A stretch of DNA of 64,000 bases from Kovacikia minuta CCNUW1 (GTDB taxonomy: Bacteria > Cyanobacteriota > Cyanobacteriia > Leptolyngbyales > Leptolyngbyaceae): assembly GCF_020091585.1 (NCBI RefSeq), contig NZ_CP083582.1:3782001-3846000 (forward strand), read 5' to 3'. Below, one piece after another: positions 29,819 through 40,246 of the stretch. The notes under the pieces were generated by a model. That model had not been told where the DNA came from, did no database searches, and was given only the letters and a program-made list of their open reading frames with translations. Position 1 is the first letter of the stretch; every line of letters starts with the position of its first letter. The position numbers and the translations under genes are program-made.

Positions 29819-31882
29819 TTACCGAATTTCTTCCAGTTGCAACAGATACAACCGGGCTGTGACCTGAGCCGTTTTTACAATACGTTGGGCAATTTCCATC
29901 GTCATCCATTCTGCATTGATTAAGGCATTCAGTTTGCCAATATGGGATTCATCATTGGCACCATGATAGGCCAGGAAAGAAACCTGATCATCCTTTAGAT
30001 GCAACGTTGCTTTAATTTGCTCTGCCCATTTTGCGGCTAAATTATTTCCCATTCCTTCAATAATGAACATGCTGCCAATCAGATCCACAGGATTCTCCCG
30101 CGATGCTTGATGGAAGATATACGCAGATAAAGCTTCACTCCCAATGTTCTTTTCCGCATTCACAATCTCTTCCAGTAACCCACCCACTGCCACGTAATTC
30201 CGCTCCAGCATTTGATAGTCGCGATGTTCGTCCTGAGCATGCCCAATAAAGGTCGATCGCAACCGAACATCCGTCATGTTTGATGCGGCACGCGCAATCC
30301 AGCGGGCACCTTCCACCACCTGGGGACGCAGATTTCGCAACAACGCCTTGTAATCCTCCAGGGTCAACTCGCCCCGATGCAGTTTTCTAACAATGGGAAC
30401 CGATCGCAACTTCCGCTCAAATTCCAACCAGACCAGGGCAAGGTGACGCAGCAGATAGGCAACTTCGGGTGTCGGGTGTGGGGTGTGGGGTGTGGGAGAA
30501 GAGTTTTGAGTTAAATCTGAGTGCTGAGTGCTGAGTGCTGAGTGCTGAGTACTGAGAGAATTTTGAATTTTGAATTTTGAATTTTGAATTGAATTCCCCG
30601 TGTCCCCGTGTCTCCGTGTCTCCGTGTCTTCCCCACCGCCCCCATCTCCTGACTCCTGACTCCTGGCTCCTGACTCCTGGCTCCTGGCTCCTGCCCCTTC
30701 TGCCCTCTGCCCTCTGCCTTCTGCCTCCCTGACACCTGTCACCTGACACCTACCACCTGCTACGACCGTCAACATCATGTACGCCGTTGTAAACCGCCCG
30801 CTTTCGGGAACGAAACAAAAGATTTTCTGTCCGGGCTGGAGTTTACCAGAATGGAACAGTTCTTCCAGCATCAGGTAAATGGAAGCGCAGCCCGTATTTC
30901 CCCGTGTGTAGAGGTTGGTAAACCACTTTTCCTCCGGAATCATGCAACCTGCCTTGTCCAGCAGTTCAATGATCTGTCCCCGGAAAAAATGGGAGGAGTA
31001 ATGGCAGAGCAACCAGTCAATTTCGTCGGGACGAACCCGACCCAGTTCGATGAGCTTGAGCCAACCTTCCACGCCCAATCTGACAACGTTATCCAATAGT
31101 CGAATGTTCTGGCGCAGGTTAATAGCTCCCGCTGCTGCTGCTGCTGCGTAGGAAGGGTAGTCCATCCAGCTTTTTTGGGCGGTTTCATCTTCAGTTCCGG
31201 CATACATACAAACCGGGTAGGCGTTGGCGTGGGAAATCAGTTCTATCCATTCGATTTTGAGACTGATTCCTGATGAATTGGGATGGTCTTGAACCAGGAA
31301 AGCTCCGGCTCCATCGGACAGCATCCAGCGGAGGAATTCGCTATCAAAACTAAGGGGTTTTCCAGCCTGAATCGCCGTTTCGGCTTCAAAGTGGGTATGG
31401 GTGAAGAGGCGGGAGGGTTGTTCAGCGGCAACCGCGATCGCAGCCCGTTTTTCACCCAGCTTCACCTGGGAAAAGGCATACTTTAACGCTGCCACTCCCG
31501 CACAACACACCCCCTGATTAGAAACAATTTCGATCGGGGAAAGCTCTGGTAACTCCCCATGTACCATGCTGGCAAAACCGGGAACCAGCAGATCTGCCCA
31601 ACTGGTTCCGGCACACAGGAGATCGATCGCTGCTGGCTCCAAATCTAACCACGCCAGGGCATCTCGAATGGCATAGGCTGCCATCTGGCTATTGAGATAG
31701 GTCGTTTGTTGGTTTTGATCCAAAGCATAGTAGCGCTGCTGAATTCCGTTGCTTTTGAGAATCCGATTTTTGACCTTGGAAGGACGACCATTCACTTTCC
31801 CTAAATAGTCTTCCATCTGGTCATTACTGATCGGATCGCCCGGTAGAAATTTACCAATACTGTTAATGAAAACTCCGTGCAT
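29819..31882 (-). CDS. Ketosynthase III fused to a heme-oxygenase-like diiron (HDO) domain
   Basis: A 687-residue two-domain enzyme. Residues 1-372 are a FabH/OleA-like ketosynthase: NQGVCCAGVAAL holds the active-site Cys (about 125), LLCHYSSH the catalytic His (about 290) and RGNTGCASIYLML the Asn (about 330). Residues 473-687 form a heme-oxygenase-like helical domain. Its likely metal ligands are VVEGARW (Glu), HAQDEHRDYQ (Glu and His), FIIEGMGN (Glu) and NDESHIGKL (Glu and His), as in the UndA-type oxidases and decarboxylases. The linker 373-472 is translated from a 7-bp repeat cluster. The ketosynthase would condense or bind an acyl chain and the diiron site would oxidise or decarboxylate it; the product is unknown. 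ATG 31882 follows AAAGGAACC. Confidence 0.85.
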   Translation of the reverse strand: MHGVFINSIGKFLPGDPISNDQMEDYLGKVNGRPSKVKNRILKSNGIQQRYYALDQNQQTTYLNSQMAAYAIRDALAWLDLEPAAIDLLCAGTSWADLLVPGFASMVHGELPELSPIEIVSNQGVCCAGVAALKYAFSQVKLGEKRAAIAVAAEQPSRLFTHTHFEAETAIQAGKPLSFDSEFLRWMLSDGAGAFLVQDHPNSSGISLKIEWIELISHANAYPVCMYAGTEDETAQKSWMDYPSYAAAAAAGAINLRQNIRLLDNVVRLGVEGWLKLIELGRVRPDEIDWLLCHYSSHFFRGQIIELLDKAGCMIPEEKWFTNLYTRGNTGCASIYLMLEELFHSGKLQPGQKIFCFVPESGRFTTAYMMLTVVAGGRCQVTGVREAEGRGQRAEGAGARSQESGARSQESGDGGGGEDTETRRHGDTGNSIQNSKFKIQNSLSTQHSALSTQHSDLTQNSSPTPHTPHPTPEVAYLLRHLALVWLEFERKLRSVPIVRKLHRGELTLEDYKALLRNLRPQVVEGARWIARAASNMTDVRLRSTFIGHAQDEHRDYQMLERNYVAVGGLLEEIVNAEKNIGSEALSAYIFHQASRENPVDLIGSMFIIEGMGNNLAAKWAEQIKATLHLKDDQVSFLAYHGANDESHIGKLNALINAEWMTMEIAQRIVKTAQVTARLYLLQLEEIR
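30463..30768. repeat. Heptanucleotide repeat cluster forming an interdomain linker
   Basis: About 300 bases of consecutive 7-bp families: GTGTGGG, GAGTTTT, CTGAGTG, AATTTTG, CGTGTCT/CCGTGTC, CTGACTC/CTGGCTC, TGCCCTC and ACACCTG/ACACCTA. The whole run is open in the fusion-gene frame and codes for about 100 residues between the two catalytic domains. Confidence 0.9.
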
Positions 31883-33719: not shown

Positions 33720-35753
33720 ATGTGTGGAATTGTTGGCTACATCGGCACCCAGGCAGCAAGCGAAATTCTGTTAGAAGGACTACGGAAATTAGAATATCGC
33801 GGATATGATTCCGCCGGAATTGCGACGGTGCTGGAAGGCAATATTCACTGTGTCCGGGCAAAGGGCAAACTCCACAACTTACAAGAAAAGTTAGAAGGCG
33901 AAGCCAACCCCTCCCAACTGGGAATTGGTCATACCCGCTGGGCAACCCACGGGAAACCAGAAGAATACAACGCCCATCCCCACACCGATACCGATCGCCG
34001 CATCGCCGTGGTTCAAAACGGCATCATTGAAAACTACCGTGAACTGCGCGAAGACCTGAAAGCACGAGGGCACGAATTTCGCTCCGATACCGATACGGAA
34101 GTGATTCCCCATTTGATTGCAGAATGCTTAATCGGTGGCAGGTGGCAGGTGACAGGTGGCAGGGAGGCAGAAGGCAGGAGGCAGAGGGCAGAAGGTGACA
34201 CTCAGTCCTCAGTCCCCAGTCCTCAGCCCTCAGTTTCAACTCAAAACTCAAAACTTAAAACTCAAAACTCCTTCCCCACACCCCACACCCCACACCCCAC
34301 ACCCCTCCTAGAAGCCGTTCGGCAAGCTGTCAATCAACTAAAGGGAGCCTTCGCGATCGCCGTTATTTCCGCTGACTACCCCGACGAGTTGATTGTGGCA
34401 CGGCAGCAGGCTCCGTTGGTGCTTGGCTTTGGGCAGGGAGAGTTTTATTGTGCCTCAGATACACCCGCGCTAGTGCCCTACACCCGTGCGGTGTTGCCCT
34501 TAGAGAATGGAGAACTGGCACGCCTGACACCATTGGGAGTTGAGGTGTATAACTTTGAAGGACAGCGGCTCAAAAAAGCACCCCGCACCCTCAGTTGGAA
34601 CCCTGTAATGGTGGAAAAGCAGGGCTTCAAACACTTCATGCTGAAGGAAATTTATGAACAACCAGGGGTGGTACGGGCCTGTCTGGAAGCCTACTTTGAC
34701 AGCGAGTGGAGTCCATCGCATCCGTCCCGATCCCCCGTGCGTCTGAATTTGCCAGAGACGTTGTACACCGATTTGCAACGGATTCAGATTGTTGCCTGTG
34801 GAACCAGTTGGCATGCCGCATTAGTTGGGAAATATTTGCTGGAACAACTGACGGAAATTCCAACGCAAGTTCAGTATGCTTCCGAATTCCGCTATTCTCC
34901 CTCACCCCTTACCCCGCACACGCTGACGATCGGCGTCACCCAGTCAGGAGAAACGGCAGACACCCTGGCAGCCCTGGAAATGGAACTGCAACGACGATCG
35001 CAAAAGCCCCCTGAGTTTGCCGCCCATCTGCTAGGGATTACCAACCGTCCCGAAAGCTCCTTAGGAAATCTGGTGCCCCATATTATTAATACCCACGCGG
35101 GGATTGAAATTGGGGTGGCGGCAACGAAAACCTTCGTGGCACAGTTGATGGCATTTTATGCTCTGGCACTGGATCTGGCATGCCGCCGCCAATCCATTTC
35201 CCTTGACCAATTTGAGAAAATTTTGGAAGGATTGCGCCAATTGCCTTCTGAGATTGAAATGATTCTGGAAAGCCAGGAACGCTACATTGAGGAACTGGCG
35301 CACGATTTTGCGGAAACCCAGGACTTCATTTTTCTGGGACGGGGCATCAACTTTCCGATCGCCCTGGAAGGTGCATTGAAACTGAAGGAGATCAGCTACA
35401 TTCATGCCGAAGGCTACCCTGCCGGTGAAATGAAACACGGTCCGATCGCATTACTGGATGCCAAGGTGCCCGTGGTGACGATCGCCATGCCGGGAACGGT
35501 GTTTGAAAAGGTACTGTCGAACGCCCAGGAAGCCAGAGCGCGGGATGCCCGCTTGATTGGGGTCACGCCGATGGATGAACAGGATGCGGCAGATACCTTT
35601 GATACCCTGATTCCCGTTCCCCATGTGGATGAAATTCTGTCGCCGATCGTCACGGTGATTCCGCTGCAACTGCTGGCGTATCACATTGCGGCGCGCAGAG
35701 GCTTGGACGTTGACCAGCCAAGGAATTTGGCAAAGAGCGTTACAGTAGAGTAA
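33720..35753 (+). CDS. glmS: Glucosamine-6-phosphate synthase (isomerizing) with an in-frame repeat insert
   Basis: Makes glucosamine 6-phosphate from fructose 6-phosphate and glutamine, the first step of UDP-GlcNAc and peptidoglycan synthesis. CGIVGYIG opens the glutaminase domain (Cys2 nucleophile after Met removal). The isomerase half has the SIS motifs VACGTSWHAALVGKYLLEQ and ITNRPESSLG, and the C-terminus shows NFPIALEGALKLKEISYIHAEG and ends DQPRNLAKSVTVE. The length of 677 exceeds the usual 605-630 because residues about 139-196 (58 codons, bases 34134-34307) are translated from a cluster of 7-bp repeats. The insert lies between AECLI and LLEAVRQAV, a loop of the glutaminase domain. 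As glmS is normally essential, the insert must be tolerated. Confidence 0.96.
   Translation: MCGIVGYIGTQAASEILLEGLRKLEYRGYDSAGIATVLEGNIHCVRAKGKLHNLQEKLEGEANPSQLGIGHTRWATHGKPEEYNAHPHTDTDRRIAVVQNGIIENYRELREDLKARGHEFRSDTDTEVIPHLIAECLIGGRWQVTGGREAEGRRQRAEGDTQSSVPSPQPSVSTQNSKLKTQNSFPTPHTPHPTPLLEAVRQAVNQLKGAFAIAVISADYPDELIVARQQAPLVLGFGQGEFYCASDTPALVPYTRAVLPLENGELARLTPLGVEVYNFEGQRLKKAPRTLSWNPVMVEKQGFKHFMLKEIYEQPGVVRACLEAYFDSEWSPSHPSRSPVRLNLPETLYTDLQRIQIVACGTSWHAALVGKYLLEQLTEIPTQVQYASEFRYSPSPLTPHTLTIGVTQSGETADTLAALEMELQRRSQKPPEFAAHLLGITNRPESSLGNLVPHIINTHAGIEIGVAATKTFVAQLMAFYALALDLACRRQSISLDQFEKILEGLRQLPSEIEMILESQERYIEELAHDFAETQDFIFLGRGINFPIALEGALKLKEISYIHAEGYPAGEMKHGPIALLDAKVPVVTIAMPGTVFEKVLSNAQEARARDARLIGVTPMDEQDAADTFDTLIPVPHVDEILSPIVTVIPLQLLAYHIAARRGLDVDQPRNLAKSVTVE
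34134..34307. repeat. Heptanucleotide repeat cluster inside glmS
   Basis: 174 bases made of five consecutive 7-bp families: CAGGTGG/CAGGTGA, GGCAGAG-type, CAGTCCT/CAGTCCC, AAAACTC/AAAACTT and CACACCC. The length is a multiple of three and no stop occurs in the glmS frame. Confidence 0.92.
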
Positions 35754-37371: not shown

Positions 37372-37695
37372 TTACGGAGAATTTTGGGCTGCAATAGAAA
37401 TGTAACGGGTTGCATTCCTTTTGTAACGGGTTACATTCCTTCTGTATGCGATCGCAATCCTAATGTATCGGGTCACATTCGCTTTGTATGCGGTTGCATT
37501 TGATTTGTAGAGGGTCACATTCGTAATGGATCGGGTTGCATTGGCAATGTATTGGATGGCAATGGCAATGCAACCCGGTACATTCGATGGGGGAGGGCGA
37601 TCGCTCTCAAAAGGTGCAGTTATCAGCAAAAAGCTGCTCCTAACAGATTTTGTGTTGGAGCCGTCAAATCTTGTAAGGGCATAGCATTTGGGCAA
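37372..37695 (-). CDS. Possible heptapeptide-repeat protein, 107 aa
   Basis: A frame encoding a short, unremarkable N-terminus and then heptapeptide repeats (NATRYIS, NVTRYKR, NVTRYIR, NATAYKA, NVTLYKS). It is created by the 21-bp minisatellite, and the C-terminal end is abrupt (AAQNSP). No ribosome binding site was seen. It may be a real repetitive peptide or an artefact of the repeat. Confidence 0.25.
   Translation of the reverse strand: MPKCYALTRFDGSNTKSVRSSFLLITAPFESDRPPPSNVPGCIAIAIQYIANATRSITNVTLYKSNATAYKANVTRYIRIAIAYRRNVTRYKRNATRYISIAAQNSP
37391..37590. repeat. 21-bp minisatellite, nine units
   Basis: Nine consecutive units of exactly 21 bp (consensus about GCATTCNTTTTGTATCGGGTT) with no length change, followed by a partial tenth. 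On the minus strand a frame from 37695 to 37372 reads through them as a heptapeptide repeat of the type NATRYxx/NVTRYKR. The constant unit length is compatible with coding, but the frame has no other support. Confidence 0.85.
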
Positions 37696-37942: not shown

Positions 37943-38521
37943 ATGATCGAGCTTACTGTAGAACAACTTATCTATCTGCTTTACGCTAGTGCATATATAG
38001 AAGAAGCAGGTACGGTAACAAAAGGCACTGTAAAATCCTATTTACCAAGCGAGTGGAAAGAAAAAGCTGAGGAAATCTATGTTGCCTTAGAAAAACAGGA
38101 ATTGATTAAACAAGTAAGTAAAGGGCGCTTTTCCGTAACCAAAGAGGGAATGAAAGCCCTTGTCACCGACCTAGCTACCACTGATTACAAGTTTGATTCT
38201 CAGAAAGGACCAAAAGTCCTAAATGTTTTACTAGATTGCATTGGAAAAGCTGCTAAAGCTCATCCTCAAACTAAGCAATCTGAGGAAATGTCTTTTGATG
38301 AATTCCAAGAGAAATTTAAAGCGCTCTACGTTGAAGAGAGAAGGGAGCAAGAGCTTCGAGGTGCAGTTGCTATTTACAGTCAGAAGCTTCTTCAAAAGTT
38401 TTCTGAACAAAACCCTATTTCTCAAAAGAAACTAAATCATTACTTCGATTTACTTAAGACGAATCGAAAGATTTTTACAGTGATCGAGAAAGAACAAGAA
38501 CTAATGGAATGGGCAGAATAA
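37943..38521 (+). CDS. Winged-helix-like protein, first gene of an ATPase/nuclease operon
   Basis: I chose ATG 37943 because GGGAGG (37932-37937) lies five bases before it; ATG 37913 and TTG 37892 are in frame but lack such a site. This gives 192 residues. MIELTVEQLIYLLYASAYI, then GTVTKGTVKSYLPSEWKEKAEEIYVALEKQELIKQVSKGRFSVTKEG reads as a helix-turn-helix with a wing; a second helical half follows (DEFQEKFKALYVEERREQELRG split). No family name is offered. Base composition is much richer in A/T than in neighbouring genes, suggesting transfer. It ends 3 bp before the ATPase gene, so the two are clearly one operon and the protein is probably its DNA-binding or adaptor part. Confidence 0.8.
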   Translation: MIELTVEQLIYLLYASAYIEEAGTVTKGTVKSYLPSEWKEKAEEIYVALEKQELIKQVSKGRFSVTKEGMKALVTDLATTDYKFDSQKGPKVLNVLLDCIGKAAKAHPQTKQSEEMSFDEFQEKFKALYVEERREQELRGAVAIYSQKLLQKFSEQNPISQKKLNHYFDLLKTNRKIFTVIEKEQELMEWAE

Positions 38522-38524
38522 GGT

Positions 38525-40246
38525 ATGGGTATGGGTGAAGATTCAGGAAAACCAAGATTTATTAGAGATTTTCTGCAAAGAATCAAACCCGGGGATGGTT
38601 TTTATGATGATATGCGAATTGAGCGTGCCATTAGATTACCTGGCTCAGATGGCGAAGGTTCAACTGCACGAAGCTTATCTGGGAGTTTAGTAGATAACGT
38701 TACTAAACTACTTGAAGATGATCTTAGACATACCTTTGACAACGGCTTTTTTACTTTTCGACTTGTCAATGCTCACTTTGGCGGCGGAAAAACCTCTCTA
38801 CTTCATTATTTACAAGAATTAGCTAAGACTAAACCAACATATAAAGAGTTTTCTGCTGTCAGTTTTTTTCGTCTTTCTGACATCCAATCAATAGGTGGTA
38901 ATCAAAGCTTCACTATAAAATTCTACTCTCACATTCTAGGACACACTTTTTGGGAATTGTTGAACAATGAAAATGTTTTAGTTAAGAAAACAGCTAAGAA
39001 TATACTGAATGATTATTTAGAACCATCTGAAGTCAGCCAACTTTTAGCAATAACAAGTCGTTCTCCTTTTTGCTCAAGATTTAGAAAATATTTTTCAGAT
39101 AGTGGCGTTGTGTTTGAGGAATTGTTTTTTGAGTCTATTAATAGAATATCGTATATAGAATCTCGCTTTACCTTTGCTTATTTGATTGATGAATTAGACC
39201 ATCTGGGGAAAAGTTTTCCAAATGAATTTCAAGAAGCAAGATCATTAATTAAATCTTTGGTCAGAGGGGTATATCAGAAATTCAGCTCGAAAATGCGCCT
39301 TTTGATTTATCTTGCAGGAACATCCGAAAATGTGAAGCAATTTATCAATGATGATCCTGTTATAGAAAGTCTTGTAGGGCATCAAGTTATTGTCTTAAGT
39401 AAAGGATATGAAAATGAATTTGAGTTGGTTAAAGCTAAAATTGATGAGCGTATTAAAGGGGCTTTCAAAGGATATCAAGATTTCAATGAGGCTTGGAGCG
39501 AGATTCAAACTATCTCCATTGATCCTGCTCAAAATTTGAGAAGCTTTTACCGAAACTATGTAACAGCAGTGCTTGAGATATATGAAAAATACTTCAAAGA
39601 AAGACCTGAGAATGAATTTGAGGGAAATGCCCGTGAGCTAATGGAAGTAGAATGTAGGCAAAAATGGCAAAGTTACTTAAATCAGAAAGCCTATTTGTTA
39701 TCTTCAGCCCCAAGTACAACTAAGATCGCAAATCATAACTTTGATTGCTGTGTAGAACTACTTCATAATGGAGTTTCTGTTGCCAGAGCGTATGGTGAAG
39801 CTAAAAATTACGAGCTTCTAACCAGTCACTTGGAAACATTCAACAAGTGGTTAGAAGATGCAAGCTTTAATCCTCATAAAGCTGATGGTAATCCACCAGA
39901 TTTGGCTTTTATGATTGCCCCTTCCTGCCCGTCTCTCTTAAAACGTAAATTGGAACTCAAAAATATTCATTTCATACAGTCGAATAAAGTCGTTGGTGAG
40001 AATAACGGAAACAAATCGGAGAAAAAATCTTCTGCTGTTAATATTAATACTGCAACAAAAGATCTGATAGTTGCTGCTTTGAAAGGAACAGGTATGAGAG
40101 GAACAACAGTTGACAAGTTAATAAATTTAAGAAGTAATAAGTCATACAAGAATATTGATGACCTTGCCTCTGACTTAAAGCTAACTTCAAAAGTTAAAGA
40201 AGGACTCCAGAAAAAACTTAATAGTGGGAAAATTTACTTTTTTTAA
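38525..40246 (+). CDS. P-loop ATPase with PD-(D/E)XK-like region and C-terminal HhH
   Basis: A 573-residue multidomain protein. The ATPase part has Walker A AHFGGGKTS (about residues 83-91) and Walker B AYLIDELDHLG (about 217-227), with LLIYLAGTSENVKQF as sensor-like strand and helix. This order resembles ORC/STAND-like or BREX-type (BrxC/BrxD-like) ATPases. Further on, FDCCVELL (Asp407), then GEAKNYEL (Glu425, Lys427), then a DLAFMIAP strand fits the D...ExK arrangement of PD-(D/E)XK nucleases. The C-terminus (about 505-573, NINTATKDLIVAALKG...) is a ComEA-like helix-hairpin-helix. The AT-rich composition suggests horizontal origin. A defence or DNA-repair role is inferred and the nuclease call is tentative. 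Confidence 0.78.
   Translation: MGMGEDSGKPRFIRDFLQRIKPGDGFYDDMRIERAIRLPGSDGEGSTARSLSGSLVDNVTKLLEDDLRHTFDNGFFTFRLVNAHFGGGKTSLLHYLQELAKTKPTYKEFSAVSFFRLSDIQSIGGNQSFTIKFYSHILGHTFWELLNNENVLVKKTAKNILNDYLEPSEVSQLLAITSRSPFCSRFRKYFSDSGVVFEELFFESINRISYIESRFTFAYLIDELDHLGKSFPNEFQEARSLIKSLVRGVYQKFSSKMRLLIYLAGTSENVKQFINDDPVIESLVGHQVIVLSKGYENEFELVKAKIDERIKGAFKGYQDFNEAWSEIQTISIDPAQNLRSFYRNYVTAVLEIYEKYFKERPENEFEGNARELMEVECRQKWQSYLNQKAYLLSSAPSTTKIANHNFDCCVELLHNGVSVARAYGEAKNYELLTSHLETFNKWLEDASFNPHKADGNPPDLAFMIAPSCPSLLKRKLELKNIHFIQSNKVVGENNGNKSEKKSSAVNINTATKDLIVAALKGTGMRGTTVDKLINLRSNKSYKNIDDLASDLKLTSKVKEGLQKKLNSGKIYFF

Follow-up and report, generated by a model that had tools for sequence, protein, structure and literature searches.

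Within a 64-kb stretch of the Kovacikia minuta CCNUW1 genome (contig NZ_CP083582.1; hereafter the window), two adjacent genes, gene A (37943-38521, plus strand) and gene B (38525-40246, plus strand), on balance probably form a minimal two-protein counter-invader system that is without a HerA motor. The computational analysis showed a tandem winged helix-turn-helix (wHTH) partner, an ATPase with an Orc1/Cdc6-like AAA+ fold, an invariant D/ExK motif, a strict operon arrangement, a patchy spread and homologous wHTH proteins heading related operons, all of which support this reading. The pair would then be a variant within a kind of system that is known but for the most part still only predicted.

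Genes A and B are co-directional open reading frames (ORFs) separated by 3 bp, as described in the original prediction, which was made from the DNA letters and their translations, and they encode proteins of 192 and 573 aa, respectively. The same prediction had noted an excess of A/T over the neighbouring genes. The operon proved to be the most A/T-rich stretch of the window, with a G+C content of 0.356 against 0.491 for the window as a whole, and none of 617 test windows outside the operon (2,304 bp, in 100-bp steps) had an equally low value. There were no GCGATCGC sites in the operon and 48 in the whole window.

The ATPase domain of gene B (residues 10-357; 38552-39595, plus strand) was assigned by VIA-align and Foldseek (best Foldseek E 6.4e-5) as Orc1/Cdc6-like AAA+, with intact Walker motifs. 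The Walker A (AHFGGGKTS, residues 83-91) and Walker B (YLIDELDHLG) motifs were found as originally described. Residues G86, G88, K89, T90, D222 and E223, together with D407, E425 and K427 further along the protein, were invariant in 29 of 29 full-length rows of the alignment. These rows represent the window protein and 28 of the 37 homologous loci, with the omission of L021 (near-identical to L020), L039, L044 (split into two ORFs) and a further six loci that are partial. The protein began at the counterpart of Met3 of gene B in 26 of the 29 rows, and the true start of the gene may lie at 38531. In the omitted locus L039 (10004-12454), the gene B homologue lies inside an unusually long ORF of 816 aa.

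By VIA-align, the ATPase fold was closest to the archaeal and eukaryotic Orc1/Cdc6 proteins (Aeropyrum ORC2: Z 16.5, root mean square deviation (rmsd) 3.7, 254 aligned residues), followed by TnsC (best Z 14.6) and BrxC (best Z 12.7), which agrees with the likeness to ORC- and BREX-type ATPases that had been proposed. The best 50 matches listed for gene B in the viral fold library were mainly AAA+ and P-loop proteins. A sequence search of the PDB with the whole or the ATPase profile returned only EccA1 (E 0.019 and 0.0092).

The region that follows (residues 355-495; 39587-40009, plus strand) is, judged by its motif, likely a nuclease of the PD-(D/E)XK superfamily. The conserved D ... (D/E)xK motif of this superfamily is present as D407 and E425-A-K427, which did not vary in any of the 31 rows of the nuclease-region alignment. 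The closest rows were more similar to the window protein across the nuclease region than across the ATPase (identity of 66% vs. 58% in L017, and 68% vs. 58% in L018). The low-confidence model of the region shows a helix, three strands and a helix, an order that would match the alpha-beta-beta-beta-alpha-beta core of PD-(D/E)XK nucleases. The PDB fold-search rows of gene B cover residues 1-359, and thus barely probe the nuclease region. Descent of the region from the nuclease or from the ATPase C-terminus of the related class II operons described below was considered and was unsupported by shuffle tests.

A C-terminal helix-hairpin-helix (HhH; residues 507-566; 40043-40222, plus strand) had also been recognised from the translation, and was corroborated by a locally confident model with four helices between residues 512 and 566 (block mean predicted local distance difference test (pLDDT) score of 83-88 from residue 511). 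Consistent with the model, sub-threshold Pfam matches were obtained to T2SSK (E 1.3e-4) and HHH_3 (E 0.016), and a profile comparison with 14 HHH_3 members gave a probability of 60% (E 8.7e-5).

The product of gene A was expected to be a wHTH-like protein, and its AlphaFold2 model (mean pLDDT 85.5, predicted template modelling score 0.53) comprised the helices and strands of two wHTH units, at residues ~1-85 and 142-191. On structure comparison, the N-terminal unit matched MarR-type wHTH proteins (best Z 10.9, rmsd 3.3, 78 aligned residues), with fold-match rows spanning residues 1-107 only. The second winged helix is predicted from the modelled secondary structure.

Gene B was identified in 8 of 386 cyanobacterial genomes, with agreement between the single-sequence and profile searches (G207 had a C-terminal piece only), and was present as a single copy in its own 8.56-Mb genome. 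A scan of 84,980 bacterial and archaeal species, one genome per species, identified 37 loci, all of them cyanobacterial as judged by record title; the scan used two short peptide patterns, which distant forms outside the cyanobacteria could escape. A phage or plasmid origin was rejected, as the phage, plasmid and viral-contig collections gave no match.

In 32 of the 37 loci, gene A immediately preceded gene B, with a gap of 3 bp in 28, 5 bp in two and 16 bp in two. The five loci without an upstream gene A were at a contig edge (L046, L048, L051) or truncated (L049, L050), and the truncated copies were present at a site where related Nostoc genomes carry intact ones (L018, L024, L025). The identities of the A and B proteins co-varied across 30 loci (r 0.849; 0 of 1000 permutations), a result that shared descent alone could yield. 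Among the 34 loci that had at least 4 kb of flanking sequence, 32 showed the pair to be richer in A/T than its surroundings. Besides A and B, the only neighbour clusters of at least four members were of response regulators or of genes belonging to shared insertion sites, and there is thus no conserved third gene.

The profile search with gene A also returned 18 further, more distant wHTH matches, and the gene order was read in 12 of these loci, termed class II. In all 12, the gene next to that of the wHTH encoded an Orc-type ATPase, and in 11 of them a DUF1802-Mrr protein came third (L160 was without it); the ATPase was split into two ORFs in L162, and L155 carried a second ATPase. The same order was present in L017, L167, L172 and L173. 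Gene A and the class II wHTH are homologous (profile probability 98.2%, E 6e-14), and the third class II protein is Mrr-type (96.8% profile probability). The class II wHTH was found in 56 of the 386 genomes at E <=3e-49 (65 at E 1e-8), and in 7 of the 8 pair-bearing genomes vs. 1.2 expected. The D/ExK pattern was absent by eye from the C-terminus of the class II ATPase, which looks like an inactive restriction endonuclease (REase), and a profile test gave no support for this likeness. No transposase was identified in the sister operons inspected.

A further group, class III, was defined from four weaker matches of the class II wHTH search. It comprises a wHTH protein, an Orc-type ATPase and a protein with 3'-5' exonuclease, PDDEXK_1, FtsK-alpha and FtsK domains, with the exonuclease part shortened in L169. 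Classes II and III are clearly related in both their wHTH (98.5%) and ATPase (99.5%) profiles. The composition of class III is that of the Orc/CDC6-coupled HerA/FtsK capture systems (PMC10853773).

All three class II ORFs are also present in the window's own genome (L167:5462-9696; contig ~4927461-4931695), where the class II ATPase and nuclease matched no PADLOC family at E 0.001. In an Oscillatoriales metagenome-assembled genome, the pair is closely preceded by a cluster (L017:2207-9092) of a class II operon, a tyrosine-phosphatase-like gene and genes for a type II REase and an N6/N4 methyltransferase. The class II ATPase of this locus had only weak PADLOC matches (mad8, 2.2e-4; IetA, 6.7e-4).

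Among open-licence PubMed Central papers, no description of the pair or of the class II operon was found. The nearest described relatives, the Orc/CDC6-coupled HerA/FtsK capture systems, are predicted to act against invading DNA (PMC10853773, section 22), and have an inactive REase between the AAA+ core and a C-terminal wHTH (PMC10853773). The pair resembles them in having an Orc/Cdc6 AAA+ ATPase (Z 16.5 to Aeropyrum ORC2), a probable REase-type domain and a wHTH partner. It differs in that no HerA/FtsK motor was identified (gene B and seven other window ORFs were scanned, and there is no widely shared third gene), that the probable nuclease residues are kept inside the ATPase polypeptide, and that, in the predicted fold, a C-terminal HhH replaces the wHTH. 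Neither 'HhH' nor 'cyanobacteria' is mentioned in the main text of PMC10853773. As the motor, one of the defining features, was not identified, and as the region after the AAA+ domain, which keeps D407, E425 and K427 and is followed by an HhH, has a model of low confidence, we did not file the pair as a member of the capture systems; it probably acts like a shortened one.

The class II operon similarly has a homologous wHTH first, an Orc-type ATPase second and a nuclease function last; unlike the pair, it consists of three genes, with a separate Mrr-type nuclease and an ATPase C-terminus in which no D/ExK was seen by eye. An Orc/Cdc6-clade AAA+ fold is also shared with BrxC/BrxD of BREX, as presented in passages of PMC12839542 (BrxC, Z 12.7). 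Membership of BREX was rejected, since gene B had no BrxC_BrxD (PF10923) match at E up to 1 and no PglZ was identified among the eight window ORFs scanned. Passages of PMC5289972 and PMC10853773 describe CR (Crinkler-type) effectors and their prokaryotic relatives, in which a CDC6/ORC-clade NTPase and a C-terminal REase are joined in one protein. Gene B probably has the same combination, likened by description only; compared with the effectors as presented there, it is without the eukaryotic header domain and has an additional HhH and an obligate wHTH partner gene.

Neither protein of the pair matched any family of PADLOC-DB 2.0.0 at E up to 1, which bears out the earlier statement that no named defence type is represented. 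That the pair is a compact defence system, as had also been proposed, is favoured by the kinship of its wHTH with that of the predicted counter-invader operons and by the content of the corresponding slot in one relative, G387. In that genome the slot is bounded on one side by the glmS gene and a gene for a 162-aa protein, and on the other by a partial relative of the PIN protein of the window (48% over 96 residues) together with a homologous segment of 519 bp. The pair is absent, and in its place the slot (L187:4072-7866) contains a PD-Lambda-1 homologue (PADLOC E 2.2e-98), a caspase-FGE protein and a Pepco protein. PD-Lambda-1 has reportedly been shown experimentally to be anti-phage, and the arrangement suggests a defence hotspot downstream of glmS.

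A number of results weigh against this reading. The slot evidence comes from the single relative G387; G389 was not syntenic, and G388 ended at a contig edge. The expected enrichment of defence genes beside the homologues was not borne out, as 107 PADLOC families were counted over 140 near proteins (<=4 kb) vs. 89 over 107 far proteins (6-10 kb), which is no near excess; the tallies count families, not proteins. The scan covered 140 of 144 near and 107 of 125 far proteins, from 25 and 23 of the 37 loci, respectively. Twelve loci were dropped as near-duplicate, short or truncated; the L017 sister operon was removed by hand, as were some proteins that were long or lay at a contig edge. Among the first 25 families listed, those near the pair included PDC-S02, mad2/mad3, a CRISPR-associated PD-DExK and a Cas12f-type match, and those further away Menshen, PD-T4-2, PD-T4-6, AriA and PbeA. 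Two near cases were identified by hand: L017 has a restriction-modification pair and L042 a C5 methyltransferase. Many homologue loci lie amid housekeeping genes, and no copy of the pair was found in the phage, plasmid and viral-contig collections.

The same applies to several comparisons of the proteins themselves. The co-variation of A and B and the co-occurrence with class II are uncorrected for phylogeny or genome size. Gene A reached a profile probability of only 8% against the class III wHTH, and the similarity of the gene B ATPase to the class II and III ATPases was insignificant (3.5-28%); the connection with the sister systems therefore depends on the wHTH of class II and on the common fold. 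For the nuclease region, the model gave the expected order of helix and strands with a pLDDT mostly <50, and the mean column identity was lower (43%, with a variable linker included) than in the ATPase alignment (60%). An alignment to Mrr_cat by hhalign placed D407 on the Mrr aspartate and E425-A-K427 on Q-x-K, and 2 of 200 column shuffles scored equally high; however, the probability was only 2-4%, and 1 of 13 unrelated families outscored Mrr_cat. Uma2 outscored Mrr_cat with its catalytic residues out of register. No significant match was obtained in the PDB or Pfam (best E 0.16 and 0.0097, respectively, to unrelated families). In comparisons with the class II nuclease and the class II ATPase C-terminus, 13 and 31 of 100 shuffles, respectively, reached the observed score, and neither similarity was significant. 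Of the original PD-(D/E)XK assignment, the invariant motif thus stands, while the fold is of low confidence and the profile comparisons are weak or insignificant.

If the pair acts as a counter-invader system, the wHTH protein would bind double-stranded DNA and would load or recruit gene B, or regulate and gate it. Orc/Cdc6 and TnsC proteins close round DNA on ATP binding, and gene B may do likewise. The HhH could add a sequence-independent grip or sense DNA structures typical of an invader, such as ends, branches or transfer intermediates, and the ATP state would then license the fused nuclease to cut. Self would be distinguished from non-self by a trigger in the state of the DNA and not by a methyl mark; a methyl-mark scheme is unlikely because no methyltransferase is conserved beside the pair (the two DNA methyltransferases identified near it were in L017 and L042). 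Compared with the sister systems, the ATPase and the effector nuclease would have been merged in one polypeptide and the HerA/FtsK motor dispensed with.

Of the other explanations, a role in DNA repair or natural transformation, in which an HhH-bearing ATPase-nuclease would process branched or incoming DNA as an accessory housekeeping factor, survives best, and we regard it as unlikely. The HhH is weakly like the ComEA/GspK-type HhH, housekeeping surroundings are frequent, and some class II operons adjoin genes named by eye as mdh or mutM. An accessory factor of this kind fits poorly with the occurrence of the pair in only 8 of 386 cyanobacterial genomes, with the truncation of L049 and L050 where the relatives L018, L024 and L025 are intact, and with the replacement of the pair by defence-type genes in one relative. 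A slightly less probable explanation is a suicide or selfish nuclease, with gene B as the toxin, a role proposed for CR-effector-like NTPase-REase proteins, and gene A holding it in check. In its favour are the tight two-gene pairing and the composition of CR effectors, which passages of PMC5289972 and PMC10853773 report as an NTPase of the ORC/CDC6 clade joined to a C-terminal REase; however, the homology between gene A and the wHTH subunit of a larger ATPase-nuclease operon is easier to reconcile with a working subunit than with an antitoxin.

TnsC of Tn7-like elements works with the nuclease partner TnsA, and the fold match of gene B to TnsC (Z 14.6) is a likeness to these elements, from which the pair differs in having no transposase cluster among its neighbours and no convincing ends. 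Transposon targeting machinery or a domesticated relic thereof (a TnsC-like ATPase, a TnsA-like end-cleaving nuclease and a DNA-binding partner) is the least probable explanation: TnsC structures are among the best folds, NTPase-REase proteins are linked to transposable elements in passages of PMC5289972, the spread is patchy, the composition A/T-rich and Nostoc mirabile has two copies (L020, L024), but the pair is single-copy in its own genome, is surrounded only by weak, HIP1-based repeats, and has no transposase cluster beside it or transposase in the inspected sister operons.

Downstream of the operon, the original prediction had placed a DUF2281/PIN pair and a RAYT, and the Pfam matches of the ORFs agreed (DUF2281-like, E 0.006, under the cut-off; PIN, 1.8e-9; Y1_Tnp/RAYT-like, 1.3e-7). 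They do not look like parts of the system, since the neighbour clusters of at least four members held only response regulators and shared-insertion-site genes, and since, in G387, the slot lacks the pair but keeps the PIN relative at its margin.

Five imperfect 25-nt repeats, spaced by multiples of 21 nt, are present just upstream of the operon (37392-37584). In the window, the glmS-like gene (33720-35753) and a ketoacyl-synthase-like gene (29819-31882) contain in-frame stretches resembling translated intergenic repeats, with a 21-residue stretch common to both; GlmS of G387 (L187) has a shorter, different stretch at this position. Rfam and tRNA scans gave no matches, and promoter-like and terminator-like sites were not commoner than in shuffles. 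The window's own genome has 122 matches to Uma2 putative nuclease domains. In Richelia sinica, a gene for a telomere resolvase-like protein (L023:12452-14374; ResT/TelK catalytic domain, E 4.7e-27) lies close to the pair, a hint of a linear replicon or of a prophage.

Returning to the reading as a two-protein counter-invader system, we tentatively place it in a broader setting, which we hold to be possible rather than probable. Cyanobacteria may hold an unrecognised radiation of wHTH and Orc/Cdc6 operons (classes I-III), with the pair as its smallest branch. The pair would be a modification-independent restriction device. In it, the nuclease domain that is inactive and structural in the relatives would be the effector, ATP-gated encirclement and cleavage would be combined in one polypeptide, and self would be told from non-self by the DNA structure read by the HhH and the wHTH. 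If the counter-invader reading is correct, cyanobacteria would possess an Orc/Cdc6-type machine of two genes (~2.3 kb), shorter than the forms found described in the open-licence PubMed Central literature. The central question about such machines, by what means an ATPase resembling origin-recognition proteins licenses a nuclease on foreign DNA when no methyl mark is involved, would become accessible in vitro. A three-gene relative is indicated as well, the wHTH of which is present in about one in seven of the sampled cyanobacterial genomes (56 of 386).

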